DNA of 37,668 nucleotides from NCBI GenBank assembly GCA_030834415.1, contig JAURFH010000013.1, positions 1 through 37,668 on the forward strand, written 5' to 3'. The position numbers and the translations under genes are program-made. This DNA is from Verrucomicrobiota bacterium. Its GTDB lineage: Bacteria; Verrucomicrobiota; Verrucomicrobiia; Limisphaerales; JAEYXS01. This document shows positions 1,466-30,951 of this stretch, in pieces (within the stretch, counting starts at the first letter, position 1; the number at the start of each line of letters is the position of its first letter). The notes under the pieces were generated by a model. The model was given only the letters and a program-made list of their open reading frames with translations, was not told the origin of the DNA and searched no databases.

Positions 1466-1533
1466 AGGATGATGGCGCGAGCATATTCACCAATCCACAC
1501 TTGAGCAACGGGGAATGTCCTCGTTGAAGCAGT

Positions 1534-2040
1534 TTAAGGTGAGCCTTTGACTGGCGACGAAACAGAAGAAGCGTTTGTCGAAGTAGGCAAATTTTCTGAG
1601 ATTTCCGTCGTCGTGATGAAGGAAAGGCTTCGGGCTACATTGGTGCTTCTCAGCATGCTCCCGGGCAAAAAATCTAGCGATTTACTGCTGCCCGATGGAA
1701 CTCTCATGACGCAAGTCTGAGTTCCGTTTATCTTATCCTTGATTGTCACGGACACCCATTTTTCTTTCTTCTGAAACCAGCTCAAGGACCACCCAAAATA
1801 ATGGCCTCCCTGAGCATCCAGCTCATAAACTTCCTCATCATTGTAATGATCGAGGTATTTGAGTGTCATTTCTGCTCCAGCCATCGGAATGCCGTTGTTG
1901 AAAAAGTAGAGCCTAGACTCTCCCCGATAATAAATATACTGACCGAATAGAGCCACAGCCAAGGCAATCACCCCTAATGTGATAGCTATTTTTGGCGTTA
2001 TATTGGCGAACCAGTCGTTTGATTTTCGCAACAGCTCCAC
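1534..2040 (-). CDS. orphan single-span membrane protein
   Basis: This 168-residue protein of unknown function begins with GTG and has one clear membrane span at about residues 17-37. A short cytoplasmic N-terminus precedes it, and a 130-residue, probably extracytoplasmic, domain follows. The outer part is rich in Tyr, Trp and Lys (for example Tyr-Phe-Gly-Trp-Ser-Leu-Ser-Trp-Phe) and ends in a Ser/Thr-rich, low-complexity tail. The gene is visibly more AT-rich than its neighbours, with codons such as AAT, ATT and AAA. That would fit a lineage-restricted or acquired gene, though it is not proof. No catalytic motif or family was recognised. It lies 64 bp downstream of the rhomboid gene on the same strand and may be co-transcribed with it. 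Confidence 0.6.
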   Translation of the reverse strand: MELLRKSNDWFANITPKIAITLGVIALAVALFGQYIYYRGESRLYFFNNGIPMAGAEMTLKYLDHYNDEEVYELDAQGGHYFGWSLSWFQKKEKWVSVTIKDKINGTQTCVMRVPSGSSKSLDFLPGSMLRSTNVARSLSFITTTEISENLPTSTNASSVSSPVKGSP

Positions 2041-2104
2041 GGGCTCAACTAAGCAACATTACGCCGCGTTAATCAAACATAAACCTTCGTACGCTGCTCA
2101 ACTT

Positions 2105-3232
2105 CTAATCGTTTCCAGACACGCGATCCCATCTCTCCTTGGGCAACGATTCCCTCCACACAAACCAAAGCACACCGCCGCCTAAAACACCGCCCAGATG
2201 CGCCAGCGCCGAAACATGTCCCCATCCGGCCAGCTGCTGCACCACGATGAGCAATTGCATCCCGCACCACAGACCGAACGCCGTCCAGGCGGACATCTCG
2301 ATCCAGCGCACTCCCCGGAAATGGTAATGCCAGAGGATGCTGATCTTCTGCTCCGGAAACGCCAGCGCATAGAACGCCAGCACGCCCGAGATACCACCAC
2401 TCGCCCCGATGCAAGGCACGGATGAGCGCGGGTCGGCGATGGCGTGCAGCAGATCCCCCGCAAAGGTCGCCACCAGAACCAGCAGCAACATCCGCCGCCA
2501 GCCAATCCGGCTCTCCACATTGTCCCCGAAGACAAACAGGAAATAGAGATTTCCCAACAGGTGCACCCAGCTCCCGTGCAGGAAGAACGAGGTGATCGAA
2601 GTAAGACCGGCCAGCCGGAAAAATTCGTTGGGCACCATGCCGAACGCATCCACATAGGCACTGAGATTGCGAAACGCTAGCGCGCTCACCATCAGCACCG
2701 CAGCGCACAATCCCCACGTCGCCCAAGTCGGTATCTTATGCGTATCGCCATCGCGTTCGACGGGCAATCCAAGCATGGCCGGAATGGTCTTCCAATCTGC
2801 CGATGGCTCCGGCCCGCTTTCCTCCGCGAGCCGTTTCACCTCATACAAAGCTAGCGCCTCCTTCGCCTTTTGAGGCAGTTCCCGCTCCAGTATCTTCGGC
2901 TTCACCGGCACCGCTTTCGGCGCACGCTCGAACTCCTCTGGATCAAACCAGACGAACTGGCACACCTTGCAGGCATCCAGCTCTTCCCCGCCTTCCCGGC
3001 TCGAGAGCCGCACGGTCAGCATCGGCCGCTCACAGGCCGGACAAGCCCGGCCAAACACTCCATCCCCGTTGCGTACCTTGGACCAAAGCGAGGTGACAAA
3101 TTCTGCCGTCCGTGACTTGCGCAAGACGCTCAGGTTCACCGTGCGCCCGCCACAAGTATTACACACCCAATGCAATCCATCTTCATGACGCTCGCGATCG
3201 ATCTCTCCCTGACAGTTAGGACAATAGAACAT
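2105..3232 (-). CDS. rhomboid family intramembrane serine protease with N-terminal zinc ribbons
   Basis: The protein combines a cytoplasmic zinc-ribbon region with a rhomboid protease, which cleaves membrane proteins inside the lipid bilayer. I chose the ATG at 3232 (375 residues) because AGGAGG lies upstream at workable spacing; the GTG four codons earlier sits directly on that site. Numbered from this ATG, Cys4/Cys7/Cys24/Cys27 form a first ribbon and Cys64/Cys67/Cys88/Cys91 a second. The membrane part begins near residue 170. It has the rhomboid signatures His-Gly-Ser-Trp-Val-His-x-x-x-Asn (His219, His224, Asn228), the nucleophile Gly-Ala-Ser-Gly (Ser278) and the second catalytic residue in Ala-His-Leu-Gly-Gly (His345). 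Both catalytic residues are intact, so it is predicted active. Its substrate is unknown. Confidence 0.9.
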   Translation of the reverse strand: MFYCPNCQGEIDRERHEDGLHWVCNTCGGRTVNLSVLRKSRTAEFVTSLWSKVRNGDGVFGRACPACERPMLTVRLSSREGGEELDACKVCQFVWFDPEEFERAPKAVPVKPKILERELPQKAKEALALYEVKRLAEESGPEPSADWKTIPAMLGLPVERDGDTHKIPTWATWGLCAAVLMVSALAFRNLSAYVDAFGMVPNEFFRLAGLTSITSFFLHGSWVHLLGNLYFLFVFGDNVESRIGWRRMLLLVLVATFAGDLLHAIADPRSSVPCIGASGGISGVLAFYALAFPEQKISILWHYHFRGVRWIEMSAWTAFGLWCGMQLLIVVQQLAGWGHVSALAHLGGVLGGGVLWFVWRESLPKERWDRVSGND

Positions 3233-3322
3233 GGCCTTCTCCACCTCCTATCCTTAAAGAAACCCGCTCTCCCGCCCATTACAATTCCCCACGATTCTTT
3301 TAATGAACAACCTCCCAAGCAA

Positions 3323-3357
3323 AACAACCCCGACACCATGAAGATGTCGGGGTTGTT
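3323..3357 (-). terminator. terminator of the DUF1080 gene
   Basis: A perfect 13-bp inverted repeat (AACAACCCCGACA / TGTCGGGGTTGTT) surrounds a 9-nt loop, 28 bp past the stop of the DUF1080 gene. On the minus strand the stem runs into TTTT then GC. The stem is strong but the T run is short. Confidence 0.65.
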
Positions 3358-3385
3358 GAAGTAACTATCAGTTCAAAAAAAGAAC

Positions 3386-4675
3386 TTACTGGACCGTCAG
3401 ATTACGATACCAGACCGGATCGCCGTGATCCTGCAGCTGGATGCGACCCGAAGCATTCTGATTGAACGTCGGTGTTTTTGCGAACTTGCTGCCCATCACG
3501 CGCTCTTTGAAGTCATCCGAAGCGGTATCATAGGACACCACCAGCGCACCGTTCAGCCAGTGCTCAATCTTCGAACCCTTGGCCACGATGCGGGAGCAGT
3601 TCCATTCACCAACCGGCTTCAGGATCTTGCTGGAGTTCGGCACGTAAAGATCATACAGGCCGCCAGATTTGCGACGTCCCTCGCGCAACTTCGCATCCGG
3701 ATGTTTCTCATCATCCAGCACTTGGTATTCCGGTCCGAGCCAGCTCTTGCCGTATTGCGCCATGCGGTATTTCACGCCGCTGTTGCTGCCTTCCGCGACC
3801 TTCCATTCAAAACGGAAATCGAAATCGCCGTATTCCTTGGCGGTGTAGATATCGCCACCCTTCGCCGCACGATACAGCACGCCGTCTTCCACCTGCCAAC
3901 CTGCCGTCACCGGCTTACCGTCAGCCAGCGTCCAGCCTTCCAGGTTTTTGCCGTTGAAGATTTTGGTGCGCTTGGCGGCATCCAAATCTTGGATGCGGAT
4001 ATTGCGCCAGGCCACTTCCATGGTCTCGGTCTTGTTACCGATGCCATGCACCTGCAGCGAGATGAAACCTTCCGGAGTCAGGCTGTCTTTGAGATCAGCC
4101 GCCGGCACACCGTTCAGATACGTCTTCAGCGAATCACCGATCGCCTCGATGCGGACCTTGTTCCACTCGTTTTGCTTGAAGGCTTTCTGCGCCTTCGGAT
4201 TGTCCTTAAGATCGTTCAGCCAGCCGCGCCGTCCCTCATCATAGATGCCCGCCGTCCAGGCACGCGCCGAGGGATCGATCTCGCACTGGTAACCATGCAC
4301 CCGGCCGGCGGCGATCTTGATGGGCTTGCCCTGGGCGTTCTTCACATCATCCAAGGTGGTGTCTTCACCAAATACATTACTGCGGAACTGGATGCCGGAA
4401 TTCATTTTCGGATCCACTTTGAATTCCAGTTCCAAGATAAAATCTCCGTAGGTCTTGTCCGTGCACAAGAAGCTGTTCGGCGTCTTGGGCACCGTGGTAC
4501 CGATGATCTGGCCATCTTCCACCCGGTATTTCGCCTCGCCACCGCGTTGCACCCAGCCGGTGAGCGTTTTGCCGTCAAAAAGTGAGATCCATTCTGCTGC
4601 GTGCGCCGTAAGCGCACCGCCGCCGAGCATGGCGATAGCTGCCAGCCACGACGCATAGGTTTTGTTCATTTTCAT
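3386..4675 (-). CDS. secreted protein with two DUF1080 (3-keto-disaccharide hydrolase-like) domains
   Basis: I place the start at the ATG at 4675 (429 residues) because it begins a clean signal peptide: Lys near the N-terminus, a hydrophobic core, and Ala-His-Ala before the mature end. The frame is open 37 codons further upstream, but that part looks non-coding. Two DUF1080 domains follow in tandem, each opening with a typical phrase: Ser-Leu-Phe-Asp-Gly-Lys-Thr-Leu-Thr-Gly-Trp for the first and Lys-Ile-Phe-Asn-Gly-Lys-Asn-Leu-Glu-Gly-Trp for the second. Each also has an Asn-Ser-Gly segment (Met-Asn-Ser-Gly-Ile-Gln; Ser-Asn-Ser-Gly-Val-Lys). The family forms concanavalin-like beta sandwiches and some members hydrolyse 3-keto-glycosides. 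Such secreted proteins are abundant in Planctomycetes and Verrucomicrobia. The exact substrate is unknown. Confidence 0.87.
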   Translation of the reverse strand: MKMNKTYASWLAAIAMLGGGALTAHAAEWISLFDGKTLTGWVQRGGEAKYRVEDGQIIGTTVPKTPNSFLCTDKTYGDFILELEFKVDPKMNSGIQFRSNVFGEDTTLDDVKNAQGKPIKIAAGRVHGYQCEIDPSARAWTAGIYDEGRRGWLNDLKDNPKAQKAFKQNEWNKVRIEAIGDSLKTYLNGVPAADLKDSLTPEGFISLQVHGIGNKTETMEVAWRNIRIQDLDAAKRTKIFNGKNLEGWTLADGKPVTAGWQVEDGVLYRAAKGGDIYTAKEYGDFDFRFEWKVAEGSNSGVKYRMAQYGKSWLGPEYQVLDDEKHPDAKLREGRRKSGGLYDLYVPNSSKILKPVGEWNCSRIVAKGSKIEHWLNGALVVSYDTASDDFKERVMGSKFAKTPTFNQNASGRIQLQDHGDPVWYRNLTVQ

Positions 4676-4818
4676 GTAATGTTCTAGAATAAAGACGCCT
4701 AAATGGCGCTGGTTGTTCAAGGAACTGGCAGACACTTTGGAGTCCGGCGTCCATTTGTCCAAACTTTTCTGGCAGTTGAAAATCACCCGTTTTGACCGAC
4801 ACTCTCCCCGTGACCAAC

Positions 4819-5754
4819 ATGCCCAACCGTTATGACCGGCATCTGGGCGCCCTATTCGGGCTCGCTCTGGGTGATGCCTTGGGGACGACGCTGGAGTTCA
4901 AACCACCCGGCTCTTTCGCGCCCATCGCAGACATGATCGGCGGCGGCCCCTTCGGCTTGAAACCCGGTGAATGGACAGACGACACCGCCATGGCGATGTG
5001 TCTCGCAGAAAGCCTCCTGTCCCAAAGCGGCTTCGATGCCCGCGACCAGATCGACCGCTATCGCCAATGGTATCGCGCCGGCTATTGGTCCTGCCGCGAT
5101 AACTGCTTTGACATCGGCAACACCATCCTGGCCGCCATCGAAAGCTTTGAGCGCACCGGCGAACCACTTGCGGGCTCCACCGATCTCCACACTGCGGGCA
5201 ACGGCTCGCTCATGCGACTGGCTCCCGTGCCGCTCTATTACGCGAATGATCCGGCAAAAGCACTCGCGATGTCTGCTGAAAGTTCCCGCCCCACCCACCA
5301 AGCGAGTGCATGTCTTGATGCCTGCTCCTATTTCGGTGGCCTGATCATCGGCGCGTTACAAGAACGCTCTAAAGAAGAATTGCTGAGCCCCGGTTTCACT
5401 CCATTAAATGCAGCTACTTCCTACTGTCCCGAAATCCAAGCCGTCGCCCAAGGTTCGTTCAAGGCGAAGGAGCCGCCCGCCATTCGTGGCACTGGTTATG
5501 TGGTGGATTCTTTGGAGGCCGCATTGTGGGCGTTCTACAAAACAAATAACTTTCGCGATGGAGCCCTGTTCGCCGTGAACTTGGGTGATGATGCCGATAC
5601 CACCGGAGCCATCTACGGCCAGCTCGCCGGGGCGTATTACGGTCTCGGTGGTTTGCCCGAAGACTGGTTGGAAAAACTGGCTTGGCGCAAACAGATCCAC
5701 CGCCTCGCCGATCATTTGTTCAAAGCGGCGACCACGCAAGTCACCGCACCTTGA
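4819..5754 (+). CDS. ADP-ribosylglycohydrolase family protein
   Basis: This soluble 311-residue protein belongs to the DraG/ARH family, which removes ADP-ribose from proteins or small molecules using two Mg or Mn ions. Visible signatures are Gly-Asp-Ala-Leu-Gly (18-22), the metal-binding Trp-Thr-Asp-Asp-Thr (52-56), Gly-Asn-Gly-Ser-Leu-Met-Arg (127-133), Ser-Arg-Pro-Thr-His (156-160), and the C-terminal metal site Gly-Asp-Asp-Ala-Asp-Thr-Thr-Gly (256-263). All key acidic residues are present, so it should be active. I prefer the ATG at 4819; in-frame TTG (4792) and GTG (4810) starts exist but add only a poorly conserved tail. It is divergent from the DUF1080 gene with about 140 bp between. 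No ADP-ribosyltransferase lies in the window, so the target is unknown. Confidence 0.92.
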   Translation: MPNRYDRHLGALFGLALGDALGTTLEFKPPGSFAPIADMIGGGPFGLKPGEWTDDTAMAMCLAESLLSQSGFDARDQIDRYRQWYRAGYWSCRDNCFDIGNTILAAIESFERTGEPLAGSTDLHTAGNGSLMRLAPVPLYYANDPAKALAMSAESSRPTHQASACLDACSYFGGLIIGALQERSKEELLSPGFTPLNAATSYCPEIQAVAQGSFKAKEPPAIRGTGYVVDSLEAALWAFYKTNNFRDGALFAVNLGDDADTTGAIYGQLAGAYYGLGGLPEDWLEKLAWRKQIHRLADHLFKAATTQVTAP

Positions 5755-5762
5755 GCGCGGGC

Positions 5763-7280
5763 TCAAAGTTTCTCCACTTTATCCACCGCCTCTCGCGCCA
5801 CGCTCTTGCTCGCCTCTACGATATCCTCACCGACTTCGCTGACCTCACGGACATTGCGCCGCAGGGAACGCCAGCTTTGACGGGCCAGACCCGTCAAGCC
5901 GCGCGGGGTGAAAAGAAATTCTGCCGTCGTGGCCACACCGACCAATGGATTGAATGAGCGCATGCCCCGCATCGCCCGCCAGACCTCGCTGGCTTGCGCC
6001 TCCGCATCTTCTTTCACCGCTCGCAAGACAACTGGCAGGAACAGACAGCCTATCATCGAAAGACCAAACAGCAGGTGGTAATTCAGGACCGGTCGCCCGA
6101 ATAGTTCGCCTGCCTTGTCCGGAAAAGCCGCCAATAAGGCGCCGCCCACCAATGGCCCCAAGGCCATTAACACACTGGTAACCGCCAGGAACACCGCGAT
6201 ATGCCCTGCCCGTCGGTTGCCCGTGATGAGCTTCAGCATCAGGTTGAACTGGCACAGTTGAAAACCGGCCGTCAAACCGCCGATGACGATGAAGGCTACC
6301 GTAAGATGTGCTTGAAATTGCGGGCCAGTGACCGTCCAGGTGATCAACCCGACCAGCCCCCAGATGACCGAGCACACGTAGAGCACCGGCTTGTTACCAA
6401 ACCGGTCGCACAAACTCCCCCACCCTTGCAACGTCAGTAATCCACCGATGCCCGCCAGAGTACCAAACACCACCACTTCACTCATGGGCAGATGCAACAC
6501 ATCGATCAGGAAGACCGTCTGGAACGGCAGCCCCATACCCAGAAAAAAACCCCAGAAGCCGATAAAAAAAGTGAAGCGCAGGTAGTTGGTATCTTTAAGA
6601 ACCGCTAGTGCCTGTTGCCAGCTCGCACCATCTTTCTGCACTTCATCCACGCTCGGTGGAAAGATCATGCGGCTCAGGTATAAGAGCCCCAACAGTCGCG
6701 CCAGCCCCGCCACAAAGAAGATGCCGGCAAAAACATCGAAACTGTTCTTCCCCGCATCTACGACATAGCCGGAAACCAACACGGCGACCAAGGTCCAGAA
6801 GCCGAAGATGAGATTACGCCGTGCAAAGAATTTTCCGCTGATACGGGCAGGCACCAAGTCCGCGATGGAGGCAGACCACGCCACACTCGCCACGCTATTC
6901 GCGAGCGTCGAGACGGACACCAGCAGGATGACCAAGCCATCACGCCATTCCGGCAGCCAGCGCAGCAAAGGCATCAGCATCCACGGCACCGCACTGAACA
7001 CGAAGGACCGGTACATGATGGTCCGTGCAGAGTGCCGCTTCTGAAGAAAACCGCTGAGCCAAGGTTGGATGGCGTTGCCGATCTGCGGCATCGCCGCCAG
7101 CAAACCCACCCAGGACGGCGACCAGCCCAACGCCATCAGCACAAAGGCGATGACGAAGGGCAGGTTGGGCATCGTGAGATTCAGCATGGGCACACTGAAG
7201 CTCGCCTCGATGGTCGAGTACTTCAGTGAGCGCAGCCTGTCCCGATGCCGCAGGACGGCAGAGTTGGGCGCTAAGGCCAT
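5763..7280 (-). CDS. MFS transporter with C-terminal helical tail
   Basis: The 505-residue protein has about twelve hydrophobic spans and the loop layout of the major facilitator superfamily. An MFS-like A motif, Trp-Gly-Ser-Leu-Cys-Asp-Arg-Phe-Gly-Asn-Lys-Pro, follows the seventh span. An unusual C-terminal cytoplasmic extension of about 70 residues follows the last span, with basic and then acidic amphipathic character (Arg-Arg-Asn-Val-Arg-Glu-Val-Ser-Glu-Val). The gene starts 11 bp after the stop of the membrane glycosyltransferase, so the two are probably one operon. That hints at a role with a glycoconjugate or its precursor, but the substrate cannot be read from the sequence. Confidence 0.85.
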   Translation of the reverse strand: MALAPNSAVLRHRDRLRSLKYSTIEASFSVPMLNLTMPNLPFVIAFVLMALGWSPSWVGLLAAMPQIGNAIQPWLSGFLQKRHSARTIMYRSFVFSAVPWMLMPLLRWLPEWRDGLVILLVSVSTLANSVASVAWSASIADLVPARISGKFFARRNLIFGFWTLVAVLVSGYVVDAGKNSFDVFAGIFFVAGLARLLGLLYLSRMIFPPSVDEVQKDGASWQQALAVLKDTNYLRFTFFIGFWGFFLGMGLPFQTVFLIDVLHLPMSEVVVFGTLAGIGGLLTLQGWGSLCDRFGNKPVLYVCSVIWGLVGLITWTVTGPQFQAHLTVAFIVIGGLTAGFQLCQFNLMLKLITGNRRAGHIAVFLAVTSVLMALGPLVGGALLAAFPDKAGELFGRPVLNYHLLFGLSMIGCLFLPVVLRAVKEDAEAQASEVWRAMRGMRSFNPLVGVATTAEFLFTPRGLTGLARQSWRSLRRNVREVSEVGEDIVEASKSVAREAVDKVEKL

Positions 7281-19636: not shown

Positions 19637-20260
19637 TTACTTCTTATCAGGCATGGCCATGAGTTCCGATGGAGCCCAAGGCGTGCTACGTGCACCTTCC
19701 TTCTCCGAAATCTTTTTCACCTCGGCCTCGGTCACAATCGAGCCTTTGTTACCCCAAGCATTACGGATGTAGCTAAGTGCATCGGCGATTTCCTTGTCCG
19801 TCAAAACACCTTTCCAAGGAGGCATCGCACCGTTGTAAGCCGTACCACTTACCGTGATCGGACCGGCGACACCATGCAGAACCAGGCGGATAAGCCGCTC
19901 GTGGCCTTCTGTCTGCACCCAATCAGATCCGGCCAACGGAGGAAACTGGCCGGGAACGCCAGCACCGCTGCCCTGATGGCAAGCGATACAGCCCTTGTTC
20001 TCGTAAACCTTCTTGCCATCCTTGATCGGATCAGGACCACCCGCACCCGGTTGGATGTTTTCAACTACCTTGTAAGAAGGATACGGCTCGTAAACTTCTT
20101 TGTTAAATCCACCGGCGCGATCCGCCAAAAAACCCATGCCCAAATAACACAGGAGACCGGCGATCACCATGACCAACACCGGAAAACGGTCTTTCTTCAC
20201 CGTAGGTTCCGGCGTTTCGGCAACTGGCTTGCTTGGCTTCTGTTTTTTACGGTCACTCAT
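19637..20260 (-). CDS. membrane-anchored monoheme cytochrome c
   Basis: The 207-residue protein has a Lys/Pro-rich cytoplasmic N-terminus, one membrane span (about 27-47) and a periplasmic cytochrome c domain. It has a single haem site Cys91-Ile-Ala-Cys-His95 and an axial Met candidate in Gly-Ala-Met-Pro-Pro-Trp (Met146). The phrases Pro-Pro-Leu-Ala-Gly-Ser-Asp-Trp-Val and Leu-Thr-Asp-Lys-Glu-Ile-Ala-Asp-Ala are typical of class I cytochromes in oxidase operons. It is last in the operon and overlaps the CcoO-like gene by 4 bp, occupying the position of CcoP, but it has one haem where CcoP has two. It probably carries electrons to or from the cbb3-like module. Confidence 0.88.
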   Translation of the reverse strand: MSDRKKQKPSKPVAETPEPTVKKDRFPVLVMVIAGLLCYLGMGFLADRAGGFNKEVYEPYPSYKVVENIQPGAGGPDPIKDGKKVYENKGCIACHQGSGAGVPGQFPPLAGSDWVQTEGHERLIRLVLHGVAGPITVSGTAYNGAMPPWKGVLTDKEIADALSYIRNAWGNKGSIVTEAEVKKISEKEGARSTPWAPSELMAMPDKK

Positions 20261-21162
20261 GGCTTGGTCACCGCAGACGCGGCATTCACCACATTCGTTG
20301 CGGCTGCAGGATCTTCTTTCTTGGGCTCGGGCTTCATCGGTGCCTCGAATACGGCCGCGTTGGACTTCAGGCTGAGCAGGTAGGCCACCAAGGCTTTGGC
20401 CTCGGGCTTCGGTACCACTTCGTAACCTGCCGGGGCAATGGCTGCAGGCAGCTTCAGGGCGTCAGGCGAAGGCGTGCGGCCAATCGGACGCTTCTCAAAG
20501 AGATACGTGTAAGAAGGCATCTTGGAGCCCTCCACCTCAGTAGTTGGTGCATAGAGGTGATTCAAGTGCCACGCCGCATCCGGACGACGCAGACCGATAG
20601 CAGTCAAATCAGGACCGATGCGCTGCTCACCCAGCATCACTGTGCGCTCAAAGAGGTAATCGTTCGCCACGGTGCGGCGGGCACCCCAGCCACGATTCAA
20701 ATCGGCTCCGAGTGCGATGACCTGCATCTCGAACTTCGCGCCAGCATCCTTAAGCTTATCGACCGTTTTCTTGGTCTCTTCGAAATTGGCACCGCTAAGC
20801 ACGGGCTTGGGCAGTTGCTTTAACAGTTGCTTCACCGCTTTGTCACCAAACCGAGGATTGGCCTGCAAAACGATTTTCGCCACTTCGTTGGTCTTCTCAC
20901 CCATTTCCATCAATATGACGTCAAACTGGACGCCACTCTGACGAACTTGCTGGCTATGGCAGTAGTAGCAACCTTGCTGGCGATAGACCTCCGCGCCTTG
21001 TTGGGCTACACCCGGCTTAGCTGCAGGATACAAGCCACCACTAACTTCCGCAGGCACCGGTTTGAGCTCTCCGACCTGTATCTGGGGCACGAAAATCATG
21101 CCGAACCAGGAAGTGACCAAGGTCACAAAGACACCTAAAAATACGAGGGGGCCTTGGTTCAT
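20257..21162 (-). CDS. cbb3-type oxidase subunit II (CcoO-like) with an L7/L12-like insertion
   Basis: A membrane anchor (about 5-25) precedes a periplasmic monoheme domain with Cys65-Tyr-Tyr-Cys-His69-Ser-Gln, the classic CcoO/FixO haem motif. The axial Met lies in Gly-Ser-Lys-Met-Pro-Ser-Tyr. Pro-Asp-Leu and the His-Leu-Asn-His-Leu segment also match the family. The protein is 301 residues, well above the roughly 200-240 usual for CcoO. The excess comes from two parts: a Pro/Ala/Lys tail, and about 70 residues (79-147) inserted just after the haem motif. By eye that insertion resembles the C-terminal domain of ribosomal protein L7/L12 (Phe-Asp-Val-Ile-Leu, then Leu-Pro-Lys-Pro-Val, then Ala-Gly-Ala-Lys). 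It overlaps its neighbours by 4 bp on each side. Confidence 0.88.
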   Translation of the reverse strand: MNQGPLVFLGVFVTLVTSWFGMIFVPQIQVGELKPVPAEVSGGLYPAAKPGVAQQGAEVYRQQGCYYCHSQQVRQSGVQFDVILMEMGEKTNEVAKIVLQANPRFGDKAVKQLLKQLPKPVLSGANFEETKKTVDKLKDAGAKFEMQVIALGADLNRGWGARRTVANDYLFERTVMLGEQRIGPDLTAIGLRRPDAAWHLNHLYAPTTEVEGSKMPSYTYLFEKRPIGRTPSPDALKLPAAIAPAGYEVVPKPEAKALVAYLLSLKSNAAVFEAPMKPEPKKEDPAAATNVVNAASAVTKP

Positions 21163-22610
21163 ACGGTTGCCTCCCGGGTTTTGCTCTTCTTGGAATCAGT
21201 CACACAACCCAAGACCAGTGGCTTGACCAAATGGTAGACGAGCATTTTCACATTACCCAATAGCAGCAGACTGCCAGCCAGCCAGGCCAAGTCGCCAAGA
21301 ATTGAGATATACAAAAACTTCATGCTGGCGGAAGAGACATCCATGAATCCGGTGTCTGATGCCAGCAAGGCTCCTTGTTGAGCTCCTCCGAGCGCAAGAG
21401 GCAGGACAAGTAACAAAACACCAGTAATGCCAAGCAGGAAATGAAACTTCAAGGCGCTGGCAAAAGGCCATTCCACACCCGCCACCCGGGGCAGGATATA
21501 GTAAATACCGCCCAGCAAGACCAGCGAGGCGAATCCCAGCAGCATCAGCTTATCAACAGCTACCGTAAAGAAAGTGAAGTGCAGGATATCACTGACTTGG
21601 GGAATCGCTCCAAATGCCTGGATAACAATACCCGCGAAGAAAGCCACGGCACCCGCCAACACAAACTTCATCGTCACACTGGAATTGAATGCCGAGTAGT
21701 CATCTTCCAAAGTCCAGTGGAGGTTGAGCACAAAAGCCAGCGCTGGACCGATCAGCATGAACGCCATGACCGTGCTCAAGGCAGGCAACCAAGCCGGCAC
21801 CGGCATACCATGGTGCATGCCGCCCATGCCGCCAAAAATCAGGAGGAACCAGAAGGTGAGGAGCGCGTAGTTGCTGCTGGCCAGCGGCTTGGCCGAAATC
21901 TTCGGCACAAAGTAGAAAACCGCCGCGATGCCGATGCTGCCGAGCCAGACGGTCACCAGATTATGGGCATACCATTGATGGACGATGGATTGCATGACAC
22001 CCACTGCCGGGTACCAGTGGATGAGGGCCACCGCCGTGGCATAGATCCAAGGAAACCAGAACAAGGCCGCCAACAGGAACCATTGGGAAGGATACAGCTC
22101 CGTCGTCTTGCGCTCGGCAAAAGTGAAACCGCCGACCGCCCCCATCAAGAGGTAACCAGCCAGCAAAACCGGAGCCGCATACTTCGGGAACTCGAACCAT
22201 TCGTATCCGGAACCATCACCGAGGAAAATCCCGATCAGCCCCAGCGTCACGCCGAGGTTCCAGAAAATGGCACCTACCGCCGCAAAGCCGCCTTGGACCA
22301 AAGTGGTCTTGCCGAGACGGGCGATGAGCCAGAGCATCACGCCGATGGCAGCCTGAGCGATGAAACCGTAAAGCAAGGTGTTGAAGGCACCCGCCTGCAC
22401 ATGGCCGTAAGTGAAGAACGGGCAATCCGCCAGCAACGCCGCGCTATGAAACTTCAACGAAGCGATGAAGCTCAAGATGGCGCTGACGATCAGCCAGGCA
22501 GCCGAACTGCCAAAGATCACCAGCAGCGGGATACGGCACGAAGCATCGATCTGCTGCGGAGTCACCTCCGGGGCAGCCGTAGCTTCAGTGTTGGTAGGGG
22601 CCGAACTCAT
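21159..22610 (-). CDS. CcoN-like haem-copper oxidase subunit I lacking key haem ligands
   Basis: This 483-residue protein has twelve or so spans and aligns by eye with cbb3 oxidase subunit I. Kept are the TM2 haem-b ligand His70 (Tyr-Gly-His), the CuB-type His216 (Trp-Tyr-Ala-His-Asn) and His266-His267. The TM10 motif, normally Thr-x-Gly-His-x-His, reads Thr-Val-Ala-Val-Asp-Lys (349-354), so the haem b3 ligand and the second low-spin haem b ligand are replaced by Val352 and Lys354. The position of the cross-linked Tyr, six residues before the His pair, is Gly260. Flanking segments (Leu-His-Phe-Thr before; Ile-Tyr-Tyr-Ile-Leu-Pro-Arg after) align well, so this is not a frameshift. The protein is intact and in an operon. 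It probably does not reduce oxygen in the usual way. Confidence 0.85.
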   Translation of the reverse strand: MSSAPTNTEATAAPEVTPQQIDASCRIPLLVIFGSSAAWLIVSAILSFIASLKFHSAALLADCPFFTYGHVQAGAFNTLLYGFIAQAAIGVMLWLIARLGKTTLVQGGFAAVGAIFWNLGVTLGLIGIFLGDGSGYEWFEFPKYAAPVLLAGYLLMGAVGGFTFAERKTTELYPSQWFLLAALFWFPWIYATAVALIHWYPAVGVMQSIVHQWYAHNLVTVWLGSIGIAAVFYFVPKISAKPLASSNYALLTFWFLLIFGGMGGMHHGMPVPAWLPALSTVMAFMLIGPALAFVLNLHWTLEDDYSAFNSSVTMKFVLAGAVAFFAGIVIQAFGAIPQVSDILHFTFFTVAVDKLMLLGFASLVLLGGIYYILPRVAGVEWPFASALKFHFLLGITGVLLLVLPLALGGAQQGALLASDTGFMDVSSASMKFLYISILGDLAWLAGSLLLLGNVKMLVYHLVKPLVLGCVTDSKKSKTREATV

Positions 22611-22634: not shown

Positions 22635-23015
22635 TCACTCGAACGCGCTCGGGGCTTCCGGGGCTTTCGGCGGGGGCTCATTGAGCTTCTCCAGACGCTT
22701 CACCATCTCGGCGTGGGCCGCCTTGGGATTCTGGTATTCGGCCAAGGTCAGTTCCATGGCGCGATCCATCGGCAAACGGACAAAACCCTTGTCCTTGTTC
22801 TGCCAAGCGTACTCCGCCAAAACCTTGTTCTCCTCGGCGCGCAGTTCCTTCAGGTTCTTCACGCGCTCTGCAGCCCGGGCAGCCGTCAGGTCAGGGGTGG
22901 TGGTGTAGTTACGCATCACCTGGATGAACCCGTAGGTGATGAGGAACGTGCCGGCAATGCCGACGAACCAGGCGATATATTTCGGTTTGCAACCGCAGCA
23001 GTTAGATTCGCTCAT
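22635..23015 (-). CDS. small membrane protein of the ACIII operon
   Basis: The 126-residue protein opens with Cys6-Cys7-x-Cys9, has one span (about 13-33), and carries a soluble helical domain. A central phrase, Tyr-Ala-Trp-Gln-Asn-Lys-Asp-Lys-Gly-Phe-Val-Arg-Leu-Pro-Met-Asp-Arg-Ala-Met-Glu, resembles a short motif (Val-Arg-Ile-Pro-Ile-Asp-Arg-Ala-Met) that I associate with small proteins encoded beside Alternative Complex III and cytochrome oxidases. The C-terminus is Pro-rich. It lies between actF (15 bp) and the CcoN-like gene (24 bp), exactly at the junction of the two modules. It could be an accessory subunit or assembly factor linking them; this is inference. No cofactor motif other than the N-terminal cysteines is visible. 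Confidence 0.8.
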   Translation of the reverse strand: MSESNCCGCKPKYIAWFVGIAGTFLITYGFIQVMRNYTTTPDLTAARAAERVKNLKELRAEENKVLAEYAWQNKDKGFVRLPMDRAMELTLAEYQNPKAAHAEMVKRLEKLNEPPPKAPEAPSAFE

Positions 23016-23030: not shown

Positions 23031-24287
23031 TTATTTGGCTCCTGCCAGTTTGGAGGAAGCCGGGGGCACATAAATGTCCAAGGCTTCGGCGATGCGGGGA
23101 TCCTTCTGCGGGATCACCGGATGTGCATTCAGCGATTTGACGAAATAGTTCACCAGCATGCCGACCATGAACAACAGCACGCCGATATCCATCAGTTGCG
23201 GCATGAAGCCGTGCGGACGCAACACCGGCTGGATGAGGAACGTCACGTCCAGATAGTGCATCAGCCAGGCCCAAGCGATGATCGGGGTCATCCACCAGAC
23301 CTTCAGCTTCAGGTCGATGCGCAGCAATGCAAGGAACGGGATGAAGAAGTGGCCGAAGATCAGCAGCACACTCAACCCGAACCAAGAACCCTGTTCACGC
23401 CAGACAAAGTAGAAGGTCTCTTCCGGGATGTTGGCGTTCCAGATGATGAAATACTGGGAGAACGTGATGTACGCCCAGAACACCGTGAAGGCGAACAGCA
23501 GGGAACCGAGGAAGTAGAACGTCTTTTCCTTGGCGAAACCTTGCAGCGGTCCCTGACGCTTGAGGATCAAGGCGACCAGATAGGTCGTAGCGATGCTCAC
23601 CCAGGTCGTACCCGCAAAATATTGCACACCGAACATGGTGGAGAAGAACTCGATCTGCAGGGACTTCACCCACATGATGATGGCAATCGTCACTGTGATC
23701 GCGAACAACCAGATGCCACCGCAAGCGAAGGCTCGCATCTTCTTGGTGCATTCTGCCGAACCTGTCTCGTCTTGTTTCAAGGACCAGTAACGCAGGCGAT
23801 TCGCCAGCAAGAACCAAGTTCCCAAAGCGATCAAGCTGACCACGATGAAACCACCCTTGGTCGCGAGTACACCCTTGGCTTCCACCGCATGGCTATGGTG
23901 GCTCATCCACTCATACAAGGTGCCCGTTCCCGGTCCGAGAATCAGGATCGGGATGAACAGCAGCGCTATCGGACCAGCCATGCTGGCCAACGCTTCCGTG
24001 ATACGACGGGTAGGCACCGACCAACTCGCATCAAACAAGTGATGCAGGATGGTGAGGAACAGACCGCCGAGCATGAAGCTCAGGCAGAAAATGAAAGCCG
24101 TCAGCCAGGAAAAGCCGAACTGACGCCCCAACGAGATCGCATGTTCACCGTCATGCTTGATCATCATGGAGGCGAGCGCGCCGACAACTGCGAGGCCGAT
24201 ACCGGCGAACATCAGCTTGGTCGGCAAAGTCCGCCACTTGGACAGGTCCAGTGGAGCTTCGGTAGGAGTGGTCTTGTGCGAAGCCAT
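23031..24287 (-). CDS. actF: Alternative Complex III membrane subunit ActF
   Basis: ActF is a ten-span membrane subunit of Alternative Complex III, the bc1-unrelated quinol:cytochrome c oxidoreductase. The 418-residue protein shows about ten hydrophobic segments and family-typical phrases: Phe-Ser-Trp-Leu-Thr-Ala-Phe with Leu-His-His-Leu-Phe-Asp-Ala-Ser-Trp-Ser in the second and third spans, Tyr-Ile-Thr-Phe-Ser-Gln-Tyr-Phe-Ile-Ile-Trp-Asn-Ala-Asn-Ile-Pro-Glu-Glu, and Trp-Leu-Met-His-Tyr-Leu-Asp. It is distantly related to the NrfD-like ActC and sits beside it in the complex. Order in the operon (after actE, 4 bp gap) is as in other ACIII clusters. Length and topology are normal. Confidence 0.92.
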   Translation of the reverse strand: MASHKTTPTEAPLDLSKWRTLPTKLMFAGIGLAVVGALASMMIKHDGEHAISLGRQFGFSWLTAFIFCLSFMLGGLFLTILHHLFDASWSVPTRRITEALASMAGPIALLFIPILILGPGTGTLYEWMSHHSHAVEAKGVLATKGGFIVVSLIALGTWFLLANRLRYWSLKQDETGSAECTKKMRAFACGGIWLFAITVTIAIIMWVKSLQIEFFSTMFGVQYFAGTTWVSIATTYLVALILKRQGPLQGFAKEKTFYFLGSLLFAFTVFWAYITFSQYFIIWNANIPEETFYFVWREQGSWFGLSVLLIFGHFFIPFLALLRIDLKLKVWWMTPIIAWAWLMHYLDVTFLIQPVLRPHGFMPQLMDIGVLLFMVGMLVNYFVKSLNAHPVIPQKDPRIAEALDIYVPPASSKLAGAK

Positions 24288-24291
24288 AAAA

Positions 24292-24906
24292 TTATTTGTT
24301 CAACACGGCGCGGTTCGGAGCCGGCACGTCGTCAATGGTTGCAAGGCGGCTGCGTTGCAGGGCGCGGATATAGGCGATGATCGCCCAGCGGTCCTCGATC
24401 TCCACGTTCGCACCATAGCTGCCCATCAGGTTTTTACCGTGAGTGATGGTGTTAAAGATCTCACCATCCGTCATGGACACCAGACGCAGGTCATGGAAAT
24501 TGGCCACAGCCACCATGTTATACTTCGTCGTGATGCCCTTGCCATCGCCCACCTTGCCGTGGCAAGGAGCGCAATTGATATCATAGCGCTGATGACCGCG
24601 GGCCATCAGTTCCTTCGTGACCGGCACCGGGATGAACGCTACAAAGTTCGTCGAGCCCGGGATACGGCCGGTGTTCACTTCATTGTCTGCATAGTGGGAG
24701 CCACGAGCGACCGTGCCATCCACCTTGAGCTGGGAGCTCTTACCATCAGCAAAGAAGTCATTACCCGCCTGCGGACGCAGCTTCGGCTGACGGTCCATGT
24801 CAGGGATGATCTCGATCGGCGGCTTAAGGGACTTATCCCCCTGCCGGCCGGCGATCAGGCAGACCGAGGCCACCGCCAGAATTAGGAAACCCAAAAAGTA
24901 TTTCAT
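24292..24906 (-). CDS. actE: Alternative Complex III monoheme cytochrome c subunit ActE
   Basis: ActE is the monoheme cytochrome c of Alternative Complex III and sits on its periplasmic face near ActA. The 204-residue protein has an N-terminal hydrophobic segment (about 3-20), one haem motif Cys112-Ala-Pro-Cys-His116 followed by Gly-Lys-Val-Gly-Asp-Gly-Lys-Gly, and the family phrase Asp-Met-Asp-Arg-Gln-Pro-Lys-Leu-Arg-Pro-Gln. Axial Met candidates lie in the Lys-Asn-Leu-Met-Gly-Ser-Tyr segment. ActE homologues are often lipoproteins, but here Leu-Ile-Ala-Gly is followed by Arg21, not Cys. Cys16 is preceded by Val, a poor lipobox. GGAGG lies upstream, inside the end of actD. Confidence 0.92.
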   Translation of the reverse strand: MKYFLGFLILAVASVCLIAGRQGDKSLKPPIEIIPDMDRQPKLRPQAGNDFFADGKSSQLKVDGTVARGSHYADNEVNTGRIPGSTNFVAFIPVPVTKELMARGHQRYDINCAPCHGKVGDGKGITTKYNMVAVANFHDLRLVSMTDGEIFNTITHGKNLMGSYGANVEIEDRWAIIAYIRALQRSRLATIDDVPAPNRAVLNK

Positions 24907-24909
24907 CGC

Positions 24910-25446
24910 TTATTCCTCCACGAGTTCGATGCGTTTGCTGCCGGCCGCTTCCAGCAACTCGCGGGTTTCTTTCGGTGAATACTTCGGATCGGCGGTCTCG
25001 ATCACGATGAAATATTTGTCATGAGTCACCAGCTTGAAGCGGTCATGCTTCAACAGCGGGTGATGCAGACGCGGCAGGCGGTTCAGGAACAGCATGCCCA
25101 ACAGCGCGCCAAAGGCGCCGAAAAGAATCGTCAACTCGTAGGACGGCGGGAAAGCGCCGAAAGGGCTGAACATCGGCTTGCCGCCGATCATCACCTTGTA
25201 ATCCACCGCGTTGGTGAACCAGATGAGCAGCATGCCGCTCGTGTAACCGGTGACACCACCGATGAACGAAAACCAGCCGACCTTCGAATTCTTCAGGCCC
25301 ATGGCTTCATCCATGCCGTGGATCGGATACGGCGTGTGCACGTCCCAGACCTTGTATCCGGCATCGCGCACCTTCTCGGCGGCGTGCATGACATCGGCCG
25401 GTTTATCAAACTCGGCCAAGAGGCCGTATGGTTTGCTAGCTGACAT
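24910..25446 (-). CDS. actD: Alternative Complex III subunit ActD (DUF3341)
   Basis: The 178-residue protein matches the DUF3341 family, the two-span ActD subunit of Alternative Complex III. It starts with Tyr-Gly-Leu-Leu-Ala-Glu-Phe and has the typical motif Val-Trp-Asp-Val-His-Thr-Pro-Tyr-Pro-Ile-His-Gly-Met-Asp. Two membrane hairpin segments follow (about 57-80 and 104-122), the second containing Pro-Ser-Tyr-Glu-Leu-Thr. The C-terminal Arg-Leu-His-His-Pro and Asp-Lys-Tyr-Phe-Ile-Val-Ile-Glu sequences are also typical. It carries no cofactor motif; in the known complex it packs against ActC. The start overlaps the actC stop by one base, and GGAGG lies nine bases upstream. Confidence 0.95.
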   Translation of the reverse strand: MSASKPYGLLAEFDKPADVMHAAEKVRDAGYKVWDVHTPYPIHGMDEAMGLKNSKVGWFSFIGGVTGYTSGMLLIWFTNAVDYKVMIGGKPMFSPFGAFPPSYELTILFGAFGALLGMLFLNRLPRLHHPLLKHDRFKLVTHDKYFIVIETADPKYSPKETRELLEAAGSKRIELVEE

Positions 25447-26876
25447 TAATGATGTCCTCCGTCTTTGGCACCACCCAGCGGATGGTGCGGGTCTGCCTGC
25501 GGGGTGATGGCTTTCACTTCACAGATGGCAATCATCGGGATGAAGCGCATGAACAGCAGGAACAGGGTAAAGAACTGACCGAACGTACCGAGATACATCA
25601 GGATGTCCACCCAGGTCGGGGAATACCAACCCCAGTTCGCCGGGAGGAAATCGCGGTGCAGCGACGTCACGATGATGACGAAACGCTCGAACCACATGCC
25701 GATGTTCACAATGAGTGACAGGATGAAGATGACCTTCAGATTGCTCCGGAACCATTTGAACCAGAACAACTGCGGGATGATGACGTTCGGCAGGAACATC
25801 CAGAGGTAACCCCAGTAGTAAGGACCGGAGATACGATTCAGGAATGCATAACGCTCAAACGGGCTGCCGCTATACCAGGCGATGAACAGCTCCATGATGT
25901 AGGCGTAACCGACGATGGAACCCGTCGCCAAGATGACTTTGCACATCAGGTCGATGTGGCGCATCGTGATGATGTCTTCCAGCTTGCACAACGTGCGCAG
26001 CGGGATGAGCAACGTCAGCACCATGCCGAAACCGGAGAACACGGCACCAGCCACGAAGTAAGGCGGGAAGATCGTCGTATGCCAGCCCGGGAGCTGCGAA
26101 ACGGCGAAGTCCAAAGACACGATGGAGTGCACGGAAAGCACCAGCGGTGTCGAGAGACCGGCCAGCAAGAGGTAGGCTTTCTCGTAGTTGCTCCAGTGGC
26201 GGTTGGAACCAGTCCAGCCGAAGGAGAAGATACCGTAAGCGAACTTGCGGAGCTTGGTCTTGGCCCGATCGCGCATGACCGCGAGGTCAGGGATCAAACC
26301 CATGAACCAGAACAACACGGAAACCGTGAAGTAAGTGGAGACGGCGAACACGTCCCACATCAGCGGTGAACGGAACTGCGGCCAGATGGCGTTCGAGTTC
26401 GGGATGGGGAACAGGTACCAATCGTACCAGATACGACCGACGTGCAAGGCCGGATAGATACCGGCACACATCACGGCGAAGATGGTCATCGCCTCAGACG
26501 CACGGTTGATCGAAGTACGCCATTTCTGGCGCAACAGGAAGAGAATCGCGGAGATGAGCGTACCGGCATGACCGATACCGATCCACCACACGAAGTTGAT
26601 GATGTCCCAACCCCACATGACCGGGTGGCTGTTACCCCACACACCGACGCCCACGGAGATCTGGTACACGATCATCGCCCCCATCGCCCCGTAGAGGAGC
26701 AAGCTGGGGATCATCATGGCCCACCACCACCAAGGGGTCTTGCCCTCGATGACGGAAGCGACGCGGTCGGACAACCAACCGATGTCGCGGCCTTTATTGA
26801 CTAATACTTCGCGTTCCAGCTCCACCGGCGGAGCCTGGACTTTGAAATTAGCAGGAATCGCGGCTGCGTCTGACAT
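25446..26876 (-). CDS. actC: Alternative Complex III quinol-binding membrane subunit ActC (NrfD/PsrC family)
   Basis: ActC is the NrfD/PsrC-like membrane subunit where quinol is oxidised, next to the ActB iron-sulfur chain. The 476-residue protein has about ten spans after a 50-residue N-terminal tail. Characteristic phrases are [13 protein letters not shown], Tyr-Pro-Ala-Leu-His-Val-Gly-Arg, [11 protein letters not shown] and Asn-Ile-Gly-Met-Trp-Phe-Glu-Arg-Phe. Conserved Asp, His and Arg residues of this kind form the quinone pocket in the family. The C-terminus is His-rich. AAAGGAG lies upstream of the ATG, which overlaps the actB stop by one base. Length and order are normal for ACIII operons. 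Confidence 0.95.
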
Positions 26877-29800
26877 TAGTGCGCTCCTTTCTTGGTCTCT
26901 TCGGTCGTGGTCGCGTGCTCGGCATGGTCATGCCCGGCATGCTCCTCATGCCCGTGCGCCTCAAAACTGTTGTGTTTATTCAACCATTCCTGGGATGTCC
27001 CGGGGAATTCCTGATAGTCAGGCATGGCCTTGTTCTGGTTGCGGATGCGCGCCAGATACGTCGTGCGCGGCTTGGTCAGCAAGAAGTCCAGCACCGAGTA
27101 ATCGCGGTCCATGGCCTTCCACTTGGAGACTTCGCTGTTCGGGTCCTTGATGTTACCGAACGCGATCGCATCTGCCGGGCAAGCCTGCTGGCAAGCGGTC
27201 TTGATGGTCCCATCGGGCACGGCCACGTTATCCGTGTCACGCGCCTTGACCTTCTGGGCGATCTTCGCGCCTTCGATACGCTGTACGCAGAAGGAGCACT
27301 TCTCCATCACACCGCGCATACGCACACTGACATCCGGATTCTTCGCCAGCTTGAGGAGTTCCCACTCCTCATCCTCACGCCAACCGCGCTCTGGGCTCTT
27401 CCACCAACGGGACATGGCCCATTCGCCATTCACCGTGGCCGTGAGCGGCGTGCGGTAGTGCGGTCCGACCAAGTCATTGAGCGGACGCTTGTTGTAATCG
27501 AGATAGTTGAAGCGGCGGACCTTATACGGGCAGTTGTTCGAGCAGTAGCGAGTGCCGACGCAACGGTTGTAGGCCATGACATTCAGGCCTTCTTCGTCGT
27601 GAGCAGTCGCATTCACCGGGCAAACGTTTTCGCACGGTGCCGCCTCGCAATGCTGGCAAAGCATCGGCTGGAAGGCGATCTGCGGGTTCAACAAATCACC
27701 CGCGAAATAACGGTCCATGCGGATCCAGGACATTTCACGTCCACGGCGCACTTGGTCCTTGCCGACAATGGGAACATTGTTCTCGCTTTGGCAGGCGACC
27801 AAGCAAGCGGTGCAACCCACACACGCGCTGAGGTCGATGGCCATGCCCCACTGATGAACGGCCTTGTCCTTCCACGCATCCAACGGATTCGCGTAGAGCG
27901 AAGGAGCTTCCGTCACACCCTTTTCCTTCAGCGCCGGGGAAACCGGAGCCGGGTGCAAGTTCATCAAAGTGGCGAAATCCGGCTGCTTCTTGTACTGATC
28001 CAAGTTCGCTTCGCGGATGATCGAGCGACCCTCCATCACGCCGTGTTCCTGCGTGCTGGCCACCGGATAAGTCTCGGTCGTGCCGGTCAACTTCGCACCG
28101 GGAGCGATGTAAAGCGTCGAAGAAGTGCGCGCGACGTAAGCATTGAAGCCGGCCGGCGTATCCTTCTGGGATTTGGCAATGCGGCCAGCATCAGGACGGC
28201 CATAGCCGAGCTCCAAAGCGACCACGTTGTCGGCCATACCCGGCACGATCCAGATCGGACCCTTGACCGTCTTGCCGTTGACCGAAACTTCAACCACTTG
28301 GTTGTCGAAACGTCCATGAGAGGCCGAAGGCGTCTGGGAAATCTCTTTCTCACCGCTGACCCAACCAGCCAGGCCCAGCGCATTGTTTTCGTTGAAGCGA
28401 CCCACGCCCAAAGCCTTGGCCGTTTCCGGGCTCACGATGATGACGTTGTCCCAAGTCACCTTGGTGATCGGGTTCGGCGTCTCCTGCAGCCAGCCGTTGT
28501 TCGCAAAGCGACCGTCATCCAAGCTGTAGCTACGATGGAAAACCACTTCAAGCGCGTTCTGACTCGGAGCCGGAAGCACTTTCGCACCCTTCAGCGCGGC
28601 GGCGATGCCGGTGCTGAGCGTGACCGTGACCGACTTGGCCGAACTGCCAGCGAGGTAACCGTCATGCAGGAACTTGCGCCACGCATTCTCATCACCACCG
28701 TCAAGGGCGGAGAAGGTTTCACGGACGATATCGTAAGGATTGGTCTTCGACTGACCGCCGATGCGGGCGAGCACTTCGAGTTCCGTGACGCCGCCGAAAA
28801 GCGGCTGGATGAGCGGCTGCACGGGCACCAACGTGCCATCCGACGTGCGGGCATCACCCCAAGATTCCAAGTAATGCGCGAGCGGCAAGTGCCAGCCCTT
28901 CTTCACGAAAGATTCATCTTCCGTGTAGCCGAGGCGGATCACCGTACCCGCCTTGGCCTGCGCGGCTGCCCAACCCAGATCAGCGGGCGCATTGTAAACC
29001 GGATTGCCACCGAGGATGACCAACGTGGAAACATCACCCGCGTTCAAGGACGCGGCGAGTTCCTGGATGGTGCCCTTCACCGGCTCAACAGCCGGGAGGT
29101 AGTTGACCGTCGTGCCCACCGCACCAAGCGCGGCATTGAGCACATGCGCCATGAGGTGAACTTCCAGCGGCTGCTGGTAACCGGCCAAAACGAGGCTTTC
29201 TTTGCCACCGGCCACCAAATCCTTGGCGCACTCGGTGATCCACTTGTCATCCGCCTTGCCCTGCGAAGCGATCGGCTCCAAGGCCTGAACCACGGCGCTA
29301 TAACCCGACTTCTGGCTGAGGATCGCGACCGCGATCTTTGCTGCGATCGGCAAAACGTTGCTGGCCGCCGTGCGCATGCGATGATCCGCATTCGCACCCG
29401 TGAGGCTATACAGCGCCTCAACCGCATACAGACGGTTCATGTCATCATGAGCCGTCTTGGTCTTGCGATTCTTCGTGAAGCCATGGATCAACGCGCAGGC
29501 GTCCTGCTCGTTGCCGATGAAATCACAATCCAGCGAGAGAATGCGCTTGGCGGCACCCAACTGGTAATCCGGACGGACCGACTTACCGAACACCGTGGAA
29601 GCCGCTTGACGATGGATATCGAAATCAACCGGCTCGTAGATATACCACTTGGCCTGCGGCAACTTCGTGGAAATGGCTTTGATGAGACGGCTACGGGAAG
29701 GTGAGCTGCTGCGCTCCAACAGGAAGCTCAGACCAGCCCCCTTGGTCGCGGCCATATCAGCGCCCAACTTGTTCAGGGCGTCGAGAGCCACATTGCGATC

Positions 29801-30286
29801 CACGCCGGCACCATCCTTGGTGAAGCGTTGAGCGCGATCGACATCATACAGATTCAGCAGGGAAGCTTGCGCGAACTGGTCCGTGCCGCCTTTGCTGCCG
29901 GGAATCTGGCTGTTACCTTCCACCTTGACCGGACGGCCTTCATGGGCACGTACCACCAAGGGGATCGCCGAACCGCGCGTCGGATAAGCCGAGGCGTAAA
30001 ATTGAGAGACACCGTGCGTGTAGTCCTCCGGCATCTTGGAGAACGGGAGGATATGCTCCTCGGGACGGCGGCAACCGGTCAGACCCACACCCGCCAGCAA
30101 GAACGAGGCGGACATGATCTTTACGAAGTTACGGCGGGAAACCGGGTCCACAAACTCGCTGGCACCTTCAGGAAACTCGCGCTCGAGCCACTGCCGGAAC
30201 TCCGGCGTGTCCTGCAACTGGTCCATACTGCGCCAGTATTGCTGGCCAGACTTCGGCTCCGTATGGGTAGGGGGAATTGTTTTCAT
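26876..30286 (-). CDS. actB: Alternative Complex III iron-sulfur subunit ActB (fused B1-B2)
   Basis: ActB joins a molybdopterin-enzyme-like domain without molybdopterin (about residues 90-780) to a four-cluster ferredoxin-like domain (about 810-1080). A Tat motif Ser-Arg51-Arg52-Asn-Phe-Val-Lys leads to the lipobox Leu-Thr-Gly-Cys72, so the mature protein should be a periplasmic lipoprotein. Iron-sulfur cysteines are at 822/825/828/832, 877/880/885/889, 909/915/919, 997/1000 and 1032/1036. These fifteen cysteines fit three [4Fe-4S] and one [3Fe-4S] cluster, as known for ACIII. The 1136 residues form a single uninterrupted polypeptide. The tail after 1108 is strikingly His-rich. It overlaps actA by 4 bp and actC by one base. 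It carries electrons from the ActC quinol site to the haems. Confidence 0.96.
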
Positions 30287-30951
30287 CGATGGCAGGTCGA
30301 GCAGCTTTGGGACGACTGCACGTTCATCTTATGGACCATTTCAAGACCGTAAGCCTCTTGCTTCGCAGCATTGGCCTTCGGGTCCTCGCTCCATTTCCAG
30401 TCCAAATCAGTGATATGCTCCAACGGCCGGATGGCCTTTTCCGGATTACGATGGCAATCCAGACAGAACGACATGCTCAGCGGCTTGGAGTGGTAAACCT
30501 CGTCCATGTGGTTGATCTGGCCGTGGCATTCCACGCAACTGACACCACGATTCACATGCACCGAGTGGTTGAAATAGACGTAATCTGGCACCTTGTGGAT
30601 CTGCACCCACGGGATGGGCTTGTTCTCATTGAAGCTGTCACGCACCACCTGCAGCTTCGGATCATCCTTCAGCACCTGATTGTGGCAGTTCATGCACAAG
30701 CTGGCAGCCGGGACATTCGAATACCAGGACTTCTCCACGCCGTTATGGCAGTAGCGGCAGTCCAACCCCAATTGATCTGCGTGAATCTTATGTGAAAAAG
30801 CCACCGGCTGCTTCGGCTGGTAGCCGACGCGCGTGTATTTCGGTGTGAAGTAGTACCACACACCGGCGGTGACCGCCGTGCCGACCAAGGATGCTCCCAC
30901 CACAATCAAGAGTGGCAGCTTATTGGTCCATTTAGGAAAAATGTCTGACAT
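30283..30951 (-). CDS. actA: Alternative Complex III pentaheme cytochrome c subunit ActA
   Basis: ActA is the multiheme cytochrome c of Alternative Complex III. The 222-residue protein has one membrane anchor (about 12-33) and five haem motifs: Cys65-x-x-Cys-His69, Cys86-His90, Cys139-His143, Cys163-His167 and Cys217-His221. The last lies one residue before the C-terminus. Extra histidines (Phe-Ser-His-Lys-Ile-His; Phe-Asn-His-Ser-Val-His; His-Met-Asp) are candidate distal ligands. Five haems is the number known for ActA. It is the first gene of the ten-gene respiratory operon, so the operon promoter should lie in the 465 bp upstream. No convincing Shine-Dalgarno sequence precedes its ATG. 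Confidence 0.95.
   Translation of the reverse strand: MSDIFPKWTNKLPLLIVVGASLVGTAVTAGVWYYFTPKYTRVGYQPKQPVAFSHKIHADQLGLDCRYCHNGVEKSWYSNVPAASLCMNCHNQVLKDDPKLQVVRDSFNENKPIPWVQIHKVPDYVYFNHSVHVNRGVSCVECHGQINHMDEVYHSKPLSMSFCLDCHRNPEKAIRPLEHITDLDWKWSEDPKANAAKQEAYGLEMVHKMNVQSSQSCSTCHR

Follow-up and report, generated by a model that had tools for sequence, protein, structure and literature searches.

A CcoN-like subunit without haem ligands, conserved in alternative complex III operons of Verrucomicrobiota

In cbb3 oxidases the CcoN subunit anchors the CcoO and CcoP cytochromes, and few redox sites in biology are as constrained as the haem-copper oxidase core. Muntyan (2015) reportedly names an 'unknown group' among COX1 proteins. 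The genes of known alternative complex III (ACIII), actABCDEF, are often followed by oxidase genes, and the complex forms supercomplexes with aa3 or caa3 oxidases, as in R. marinus, where electrons are passed to a caa3 oxidase within the supercomplex (PMC5928083). The ActB1 domain of the R. marinus complex carries no prosthetic group (PMC5928083). The path to aa3 in F. johnsoniae does not require ActE (PMC8552683), so that electron exits vary between ACIII types. In Opitutaceae and other Verrucomicrobiota (Geminisphaera colitermitum TAV2, strain IMCC26134) the ACIII operon contains CcoN-, CcoO- and CcoP-like genes (N-O-P) whose N protein has all ligands and the active-site Tyr, and some of these loci adjoin a CcoI-like copper ATPase.

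A stretch of 37,668 nucleotides from a Verrucomicrobiota bacterium of the order Limisphaerales (contig JAURFH010000013.1; hereafter the window) was analysed here. It carries a tight minus-strand ACIII operon with the order actABCDEF-s-N-O-P (Table 1), in which actA to actF follow each other in order, ActF being assigned by position, and in which the small protein s has the same place as in most of these operons (tblastn). The operon and its subunits correspond to those of TAV2 and IMCC26134, with 36-40% identity. The order B-C-D-E-F-(s)-N-O-P recurred in almost every locus of sufficient length, and it is from this gene order that N, O and P are taken to be part of ACIII. The set actABCDEF is shared with known ACIII systems; the linked oxidase there is a working A-type enzyme, whereas its counterpart here is oxidase-like and lacks the haem ligands.

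Table 1. Features of the ACIII operon in the window.
Feature	Position	Strand	Basis or remark
ActA, five CXXCH motifs	30283..30951	-	motif count; cytochrome c7/c3 families
ActB, molybdopterin-oxidoreductase-like and FeS domains	26876..30286	-	TIGR04519 and QrcB/QrcC-like matches, Fer4
ActC, NrfD-like quinol-site subunit	25446..26876	-	PF03916
ActD	24910..25446	-	PF11821 ActD, 218 bits
ActE, mono-haem cytochrome c	24292..24906	-	PF13442
ActF-like membrane protein	23031..24287	-	position and length; no Pfam match
Small protein (s), 126 aa, between ActF and N	22635..23015	-	unmatched in Pfam and NCBIfam
CcoN-like subunit without haem ligands (N)	21159..22610	-	PF00115 fold, 483 aa
Ala75 at the TM2 haem b ligand His position	22386..22388	-	alignment to CcoN and relatives
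His216, CuB ligand position, kept	21963..21965	-	alignment; likewise present in two further species of the genus
Gly260 replacing the active-site Tyr (TM7)	21831..21833	-	alignment to CcoN and relatives
His266-His267, CuB ligand positions, kept	21810..21815	-	alignment; a two-residue deletion follows in the window's lineage
Val352-Asp353-Lys354 replacing the TM10 His-x-His (haem b3 and haem b ligands)	21549..21557	-	alignment to 3mk7 and 14 intact relatives (HAH, HSH and similar)
CcoO-like mono-haem cytochrome c (O)	20257..21162	-	PF02433 FixO, 72 bits; CXXCH at 20923-20937
Ribosomal L7/L12 C-terminal-domain-like insert in O	20725..20925	-	PF00542, 28.9 bits, cut-off 25.9
CcoP-like mono-haem cytochrome c (P)	19637..20260	-	PF00034 and PF13442

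The frame of N is unbroken, and its product matched PF00115 with 118 bits (cut-off 34.8), which places it in the COX1/CcoN fold; against the NCBIfam equivalog TIGR00780 for ccoN it reached 96 bits, the cut-off being 583. The best match among solved structures was the cbb3 CcoN of Pseudomonas stutzeri (3mk7, E 3e-23), with which N was aligned as had been proposed in a preliminary description of this DNA. In TM10 the gap-free alignment sets SHYTDWTIGHVHAG of CcoN against LHFTFFTVAVDKLM of N, so that Val352 stands in the place of His345 and Lys354 in that of His347. Misalignment of TM10 was rejected, since the neighbourhood of the motif was gap-free against 3mk7 as well as against 14 intact relatives. 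The preliminary description had reported the intact frame, the compact operon, the Val352-Asp-Lys354 motif, Gly260 where the active-site Tyr is expected and the retention of His216, His266 and His267, all of which were confirmed, the three His residues all lying at CuB positions. Its claim that a TM2 haem ligand was kept as His70 was wrong, because His70 (22401-22403) aligns with an Arg (GHVQAGAFN in N, GRLRPLHTN in CcoN) and the ligand position is that of Ala75; the loss is thus more complete than had been thought. The missing Phe-Glu-Gly segment, which it had also listed, is not diagnostic, given that fully liganded N proteins of the same operon family likewise do without the Glu (SLQG, SLIG and similar).

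Judged from these alignments, both low-spin haem b ligands (TM2, TM10) and the haem b3 ligand are gone from N of the window together with the active-site Tyr, and of the redox ligands only the three CuB His remain. It is very probable that N binds neither haem b nor haem b3. As the defining ligands were tested and are absent, N is by its sequence a member of the fold family and not a cbb3 oxidase.

The structure of N was modelled with AlphaFold, another check proposed earlier, from two alignments, one including intact relatives (pLDDT 84) and one made of 31 degenerate sequences only (pLDDT 94.5, pTM 0.92). Over the whole length both models superimposed on cbb3 CcoN with Z scores of 48-50 and rmsd values of 1.8-2.2 A, the degenerate-only model having Z 50, so that N is predicted to have the full-length CcoN fold even when intact sequences are kept out of the alignment. 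N therefore resembles P. stutzeri CcoN (3mk7) in its whole-length modelled fold (Z 50, rmsd 1.8 A), in the adjoining genes for mono-haem CcoO- and CcoP-like proteins and, within the window's genus, in the CuB His, but differs from it in lacking the haem b ligands, the haem b3 ligand and the active-site Tyr and in lying in an ACIII operon.

A search of the phylum Verrucomicrobiota found relatives of N in 122 of 387 genomes, and one of the order Limisphaerales in 127 of 146, the weakest matches being ordinary COX1 proteins. Together with the window, 140 loci were classified (141 in total), giving 137 ACIII-type N and four other COX1 proteins that served as outgroup. All ligands and the Tyr were kept in 14 of the 137 ACIII-linked N of Verrucomicrobiota (intact), and the haem ligands were lost in the remaining 123 (degenerate), one of which (L178) was set apart, so that 122 degenerate N were scored. 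No His was kept at any of six scored positions in 75 of these 122, and three was the maximum, one of the six columns being that of the second CuB His, which is affected by gaps. A His at the haem b3 position was found once, both low-spin ligands never, and the active-site Tyr was present in all 14 intact relatives and in none of the 122. Six positions of the ligands and the Tyr, each invariant among the 14 intact N, were retained on average to 7% in the other N, compared with a median retention of 63% for the remaining invariant positions; with the second CuB His left out due to an aligner gap, the permutation p for this contrast was about 1e-5, which makes the loss of ligands more than a matter of chance. 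The vacated ligand columns are occupied by many different residues. A second set of 80 named loci, overlapping in part with the 141, comprised 50 intact and 30 other loci. In L263 and L274 (Opitutaceae MAGs) N appears to have the TM2, TM6 and TM10 His and to lack the TM7 Tyr and His, which may reflect a partial state, a frameshift or a misalignment. The haem-ligand-less N is real and conserved, and no description of a haem-free CcoN was found in the open-licence literature searched.

The neighbouring cytochromes kept their c-haem motifs. A single CXXCH was found in O of 119 of 122 degenerate operons and the axial Met was kept in 88%, and the conserved positions around the CXXCH and at the axial Met match those of intact operons; in P the CXXCH was kept in all 116 degenerate operons. 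Electrons could thus still run through the c-haems even though N has no haem ligand, and the earlier suggestion of an electron-transfer partner fits O and P, but not N itself. A CcoI-like copper ATPase was located near N in 4 of 14 intact and in 0 of 123 degenerate loci, a count in which the loci extend only about 2 kb past P and related species are not independent. An insert at the site of the L7/L12-like domain of O, which sits right after the CXXCH segment, was seen in about 47 of 121 degenerate and in none of 14 intact operons.

The haem-holding residues were lost, yet the gene was kept intact in the ACIII operon, and N is thus probably a structural part of ACIII and not an oxidase. We favour, with a probability of about 0.62, the reading that N is a pseudo-oxidase, free of haem and incapable of O2 reduction, which was kept as scaffold subunit of an enlarged ACIII carrying O and P; for N-O-P as a whole we infer a scaffold and relay role. 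ACIII would oxidise menaquinol and deliver the electrons to haems c, and N would act as membrane anchor and docking platform for the mono-haem proteins O and P, as suggested by its fold and by the established role of CcoN in cbb3 oxidase. O and P would hand the electrons to a soluble cytochrome c or to a separate A-type oxidase, a relay to which their kept c-haem motifs point. The ancestral N-O-P would have been a working cbb3-like oxidase in the ACIII operon, a state that persists in some relatives; another oxidase may then have taken over, upon which N lost its redox centre but stayed on as scaffold together with the cytochromes. Why O and P should be needed is not evident, since an electron exit is already given by ActE.

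Whether the genome holds a second, canonical terminal oxidase had been raised in the preliminary description, and a complete A-type oxidase, its COX1 with all motifs, was indeed located on another contig. No other ccoN-like gene and no cytochrome bd were found in this genome, the completeness of which is about 94%. Tallies for the order, read from tables by eye, gave further COX1 genes in most genomes whose N is degenerate. Counting against the preferred reading, three genomes of fair completeness that combine ACIII with a degenerate N-O-P (G401, G426, G453) yielded no other haem-copper oxidase and only cytochrome bd. In the same tallies the intact N is the only COX1 of the genomes G421, G493 and G513.

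A bolder proposal, which we hold to be rather unlikely, is that the haem-free haem-copper oxidase fold became a stable subunit of a quinol-oxidising complex, was stripped of its ligands in parallel many times and serves a separate function, for example ion translocation or electron-exit gating. That N specifically forms an ACIII-coupled channel for protons or ions from the haem-less oxidase fold is unlikely: the polar residues Asn118, Gln207, Lys237 and Asn296 are conserved in intact and degenerate N, and ACIII has been proposed to pump protons via ActC and ActF (PMC5928083), but the active-site Tyr is gone. It is likewise doubtful that N still binds a metal or other cofactor, for example copper or zinc at His216, His266 and His267, for new chemistry or sensing. 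A metal could still be bound because the three CuB His survive in the window's genus, where they are identical in three species (the window and two others) whose N proteins are only about 70% identical; against this, three kept residues are unsurprising at such identity, the triad is broken in most relatives outside the genus, and the TM7 His is absent from 90 of the 122 degenerate N. Moreover, no new conserved His was found when a compensating one was sought across the degenerate N, and with the ligand columns free to vary, the different cofactors envisaged earlier find no support. As alternative haem ligands only His55 and His390, present in more than 40% of degenerate N, came into question, and these were rejected as they are at least as conserved in intact N. 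A working oxidase whose haems are held by other residues would agree with the good predicted CcoN fold, but it is highly improbable given the freely variable ligand positions, the lack of a compensating His conserved across the family and the separate intact A-type oxidase in the genome. Decay into a pseudogene, to which the faster evolution of N relative to ActC and the disrupted frames in the TM10 region of two relatives (L073, L084) might point, is scarcely credible and was rejected together with a frameshift, as frames are open in more than 100 species, structural residues are more than 95% conserved (Trp39, Gly69, Gly82, Trp94, Trp117, Pro142, Trp177, Trp188, Trp213, Pro272, Trp274) and neither many disrupted frames nor dN/dS values near 1 occur among close relatives of the window.

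Among degenerate relatives the pairwise dN/dS of N was 0.05-0.24, except for one pair with 0.66 that involves the disrupted L073 frame, and in the window's genus it was 0.17-0.19 with dS near saturation. The values for ActF, O and P were similar to those of N, and that of an intact N pair was 0.08. These ratios indicate that the degenerate N is under purifying selection. The earlier view that the subunit was selected and repurposed and did not decay is consequently supported by the same loss in 123 operons, the intact frame, the low dN/dS and the conserved fold, in line with the scaffold reading preferred here.

The history of the loss is less simple. In the N tree the 122 degenerate proteins formed one group (SH-aLRT 97) and L178 represented a second loss. 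The trees of ActB, ActC, ActD and ActF mixed intact and degenerate operons by taxon, with 9-11 changes of which at least 6-8 were forced; the intact L103, for instance, grouped in the Act trees with the degenerate L147, L152 and L155 of its own family. Four changes were needed in the O tree, and four in a tree without constrained columns, which did not settle the question. A single origin of the loss is not a safe assumption, with two losses in the N tree and conflicting Act and O trees. Since the Act trees disagree with the N tree, the sequences point to two losses as a minimum and perhaps to six or more, or else to movement of N-O cassettes between operons. In the first case N was lost many times and shared relaxation distorts its tree; in the second the cassettes were swapped. 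Such exchange, or paralogy, may have taken place, as genome G425 holds both types of N: L119 is degenerate and ACIII-linked, and L283 (G425:C548, bases about 1180-6900) is an intact N-O-P that has no ACIII gene directly upstream and a CcoI-like copper ATPase behind it.

If N is such a scaffold, it would be a second cofactor-less enzyme relic for ACIII beside that of ActB; both would be redox-enzyme folds kept without a cofactor in the same complex, ActB1 (PMC5928083) with a molybdopterin-enzyme fold and N with a haem-copper one. The occurrence of ligand-less and intact relatives from the same operon may allow residues for catalysis to be separated from those for assembly and docking. Genes for high-affinity (cbb3) oxidases are often read as a sign of microaerobic life (PMC8407424), and automatic annotation by PF00115, as 'ccoN' or as 'cbb3 oxidase' would attribute such an enzyme in error to many Verrucomicrobiota and mislead surveys that count these genes. 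Eight records titled Akkermansia muciniphila or Omnitrophota (L225, L234, L242, L247, L250, L256, L270, L273) carry the verrucomicrobial operon and are possibly mislabelled MAGs.
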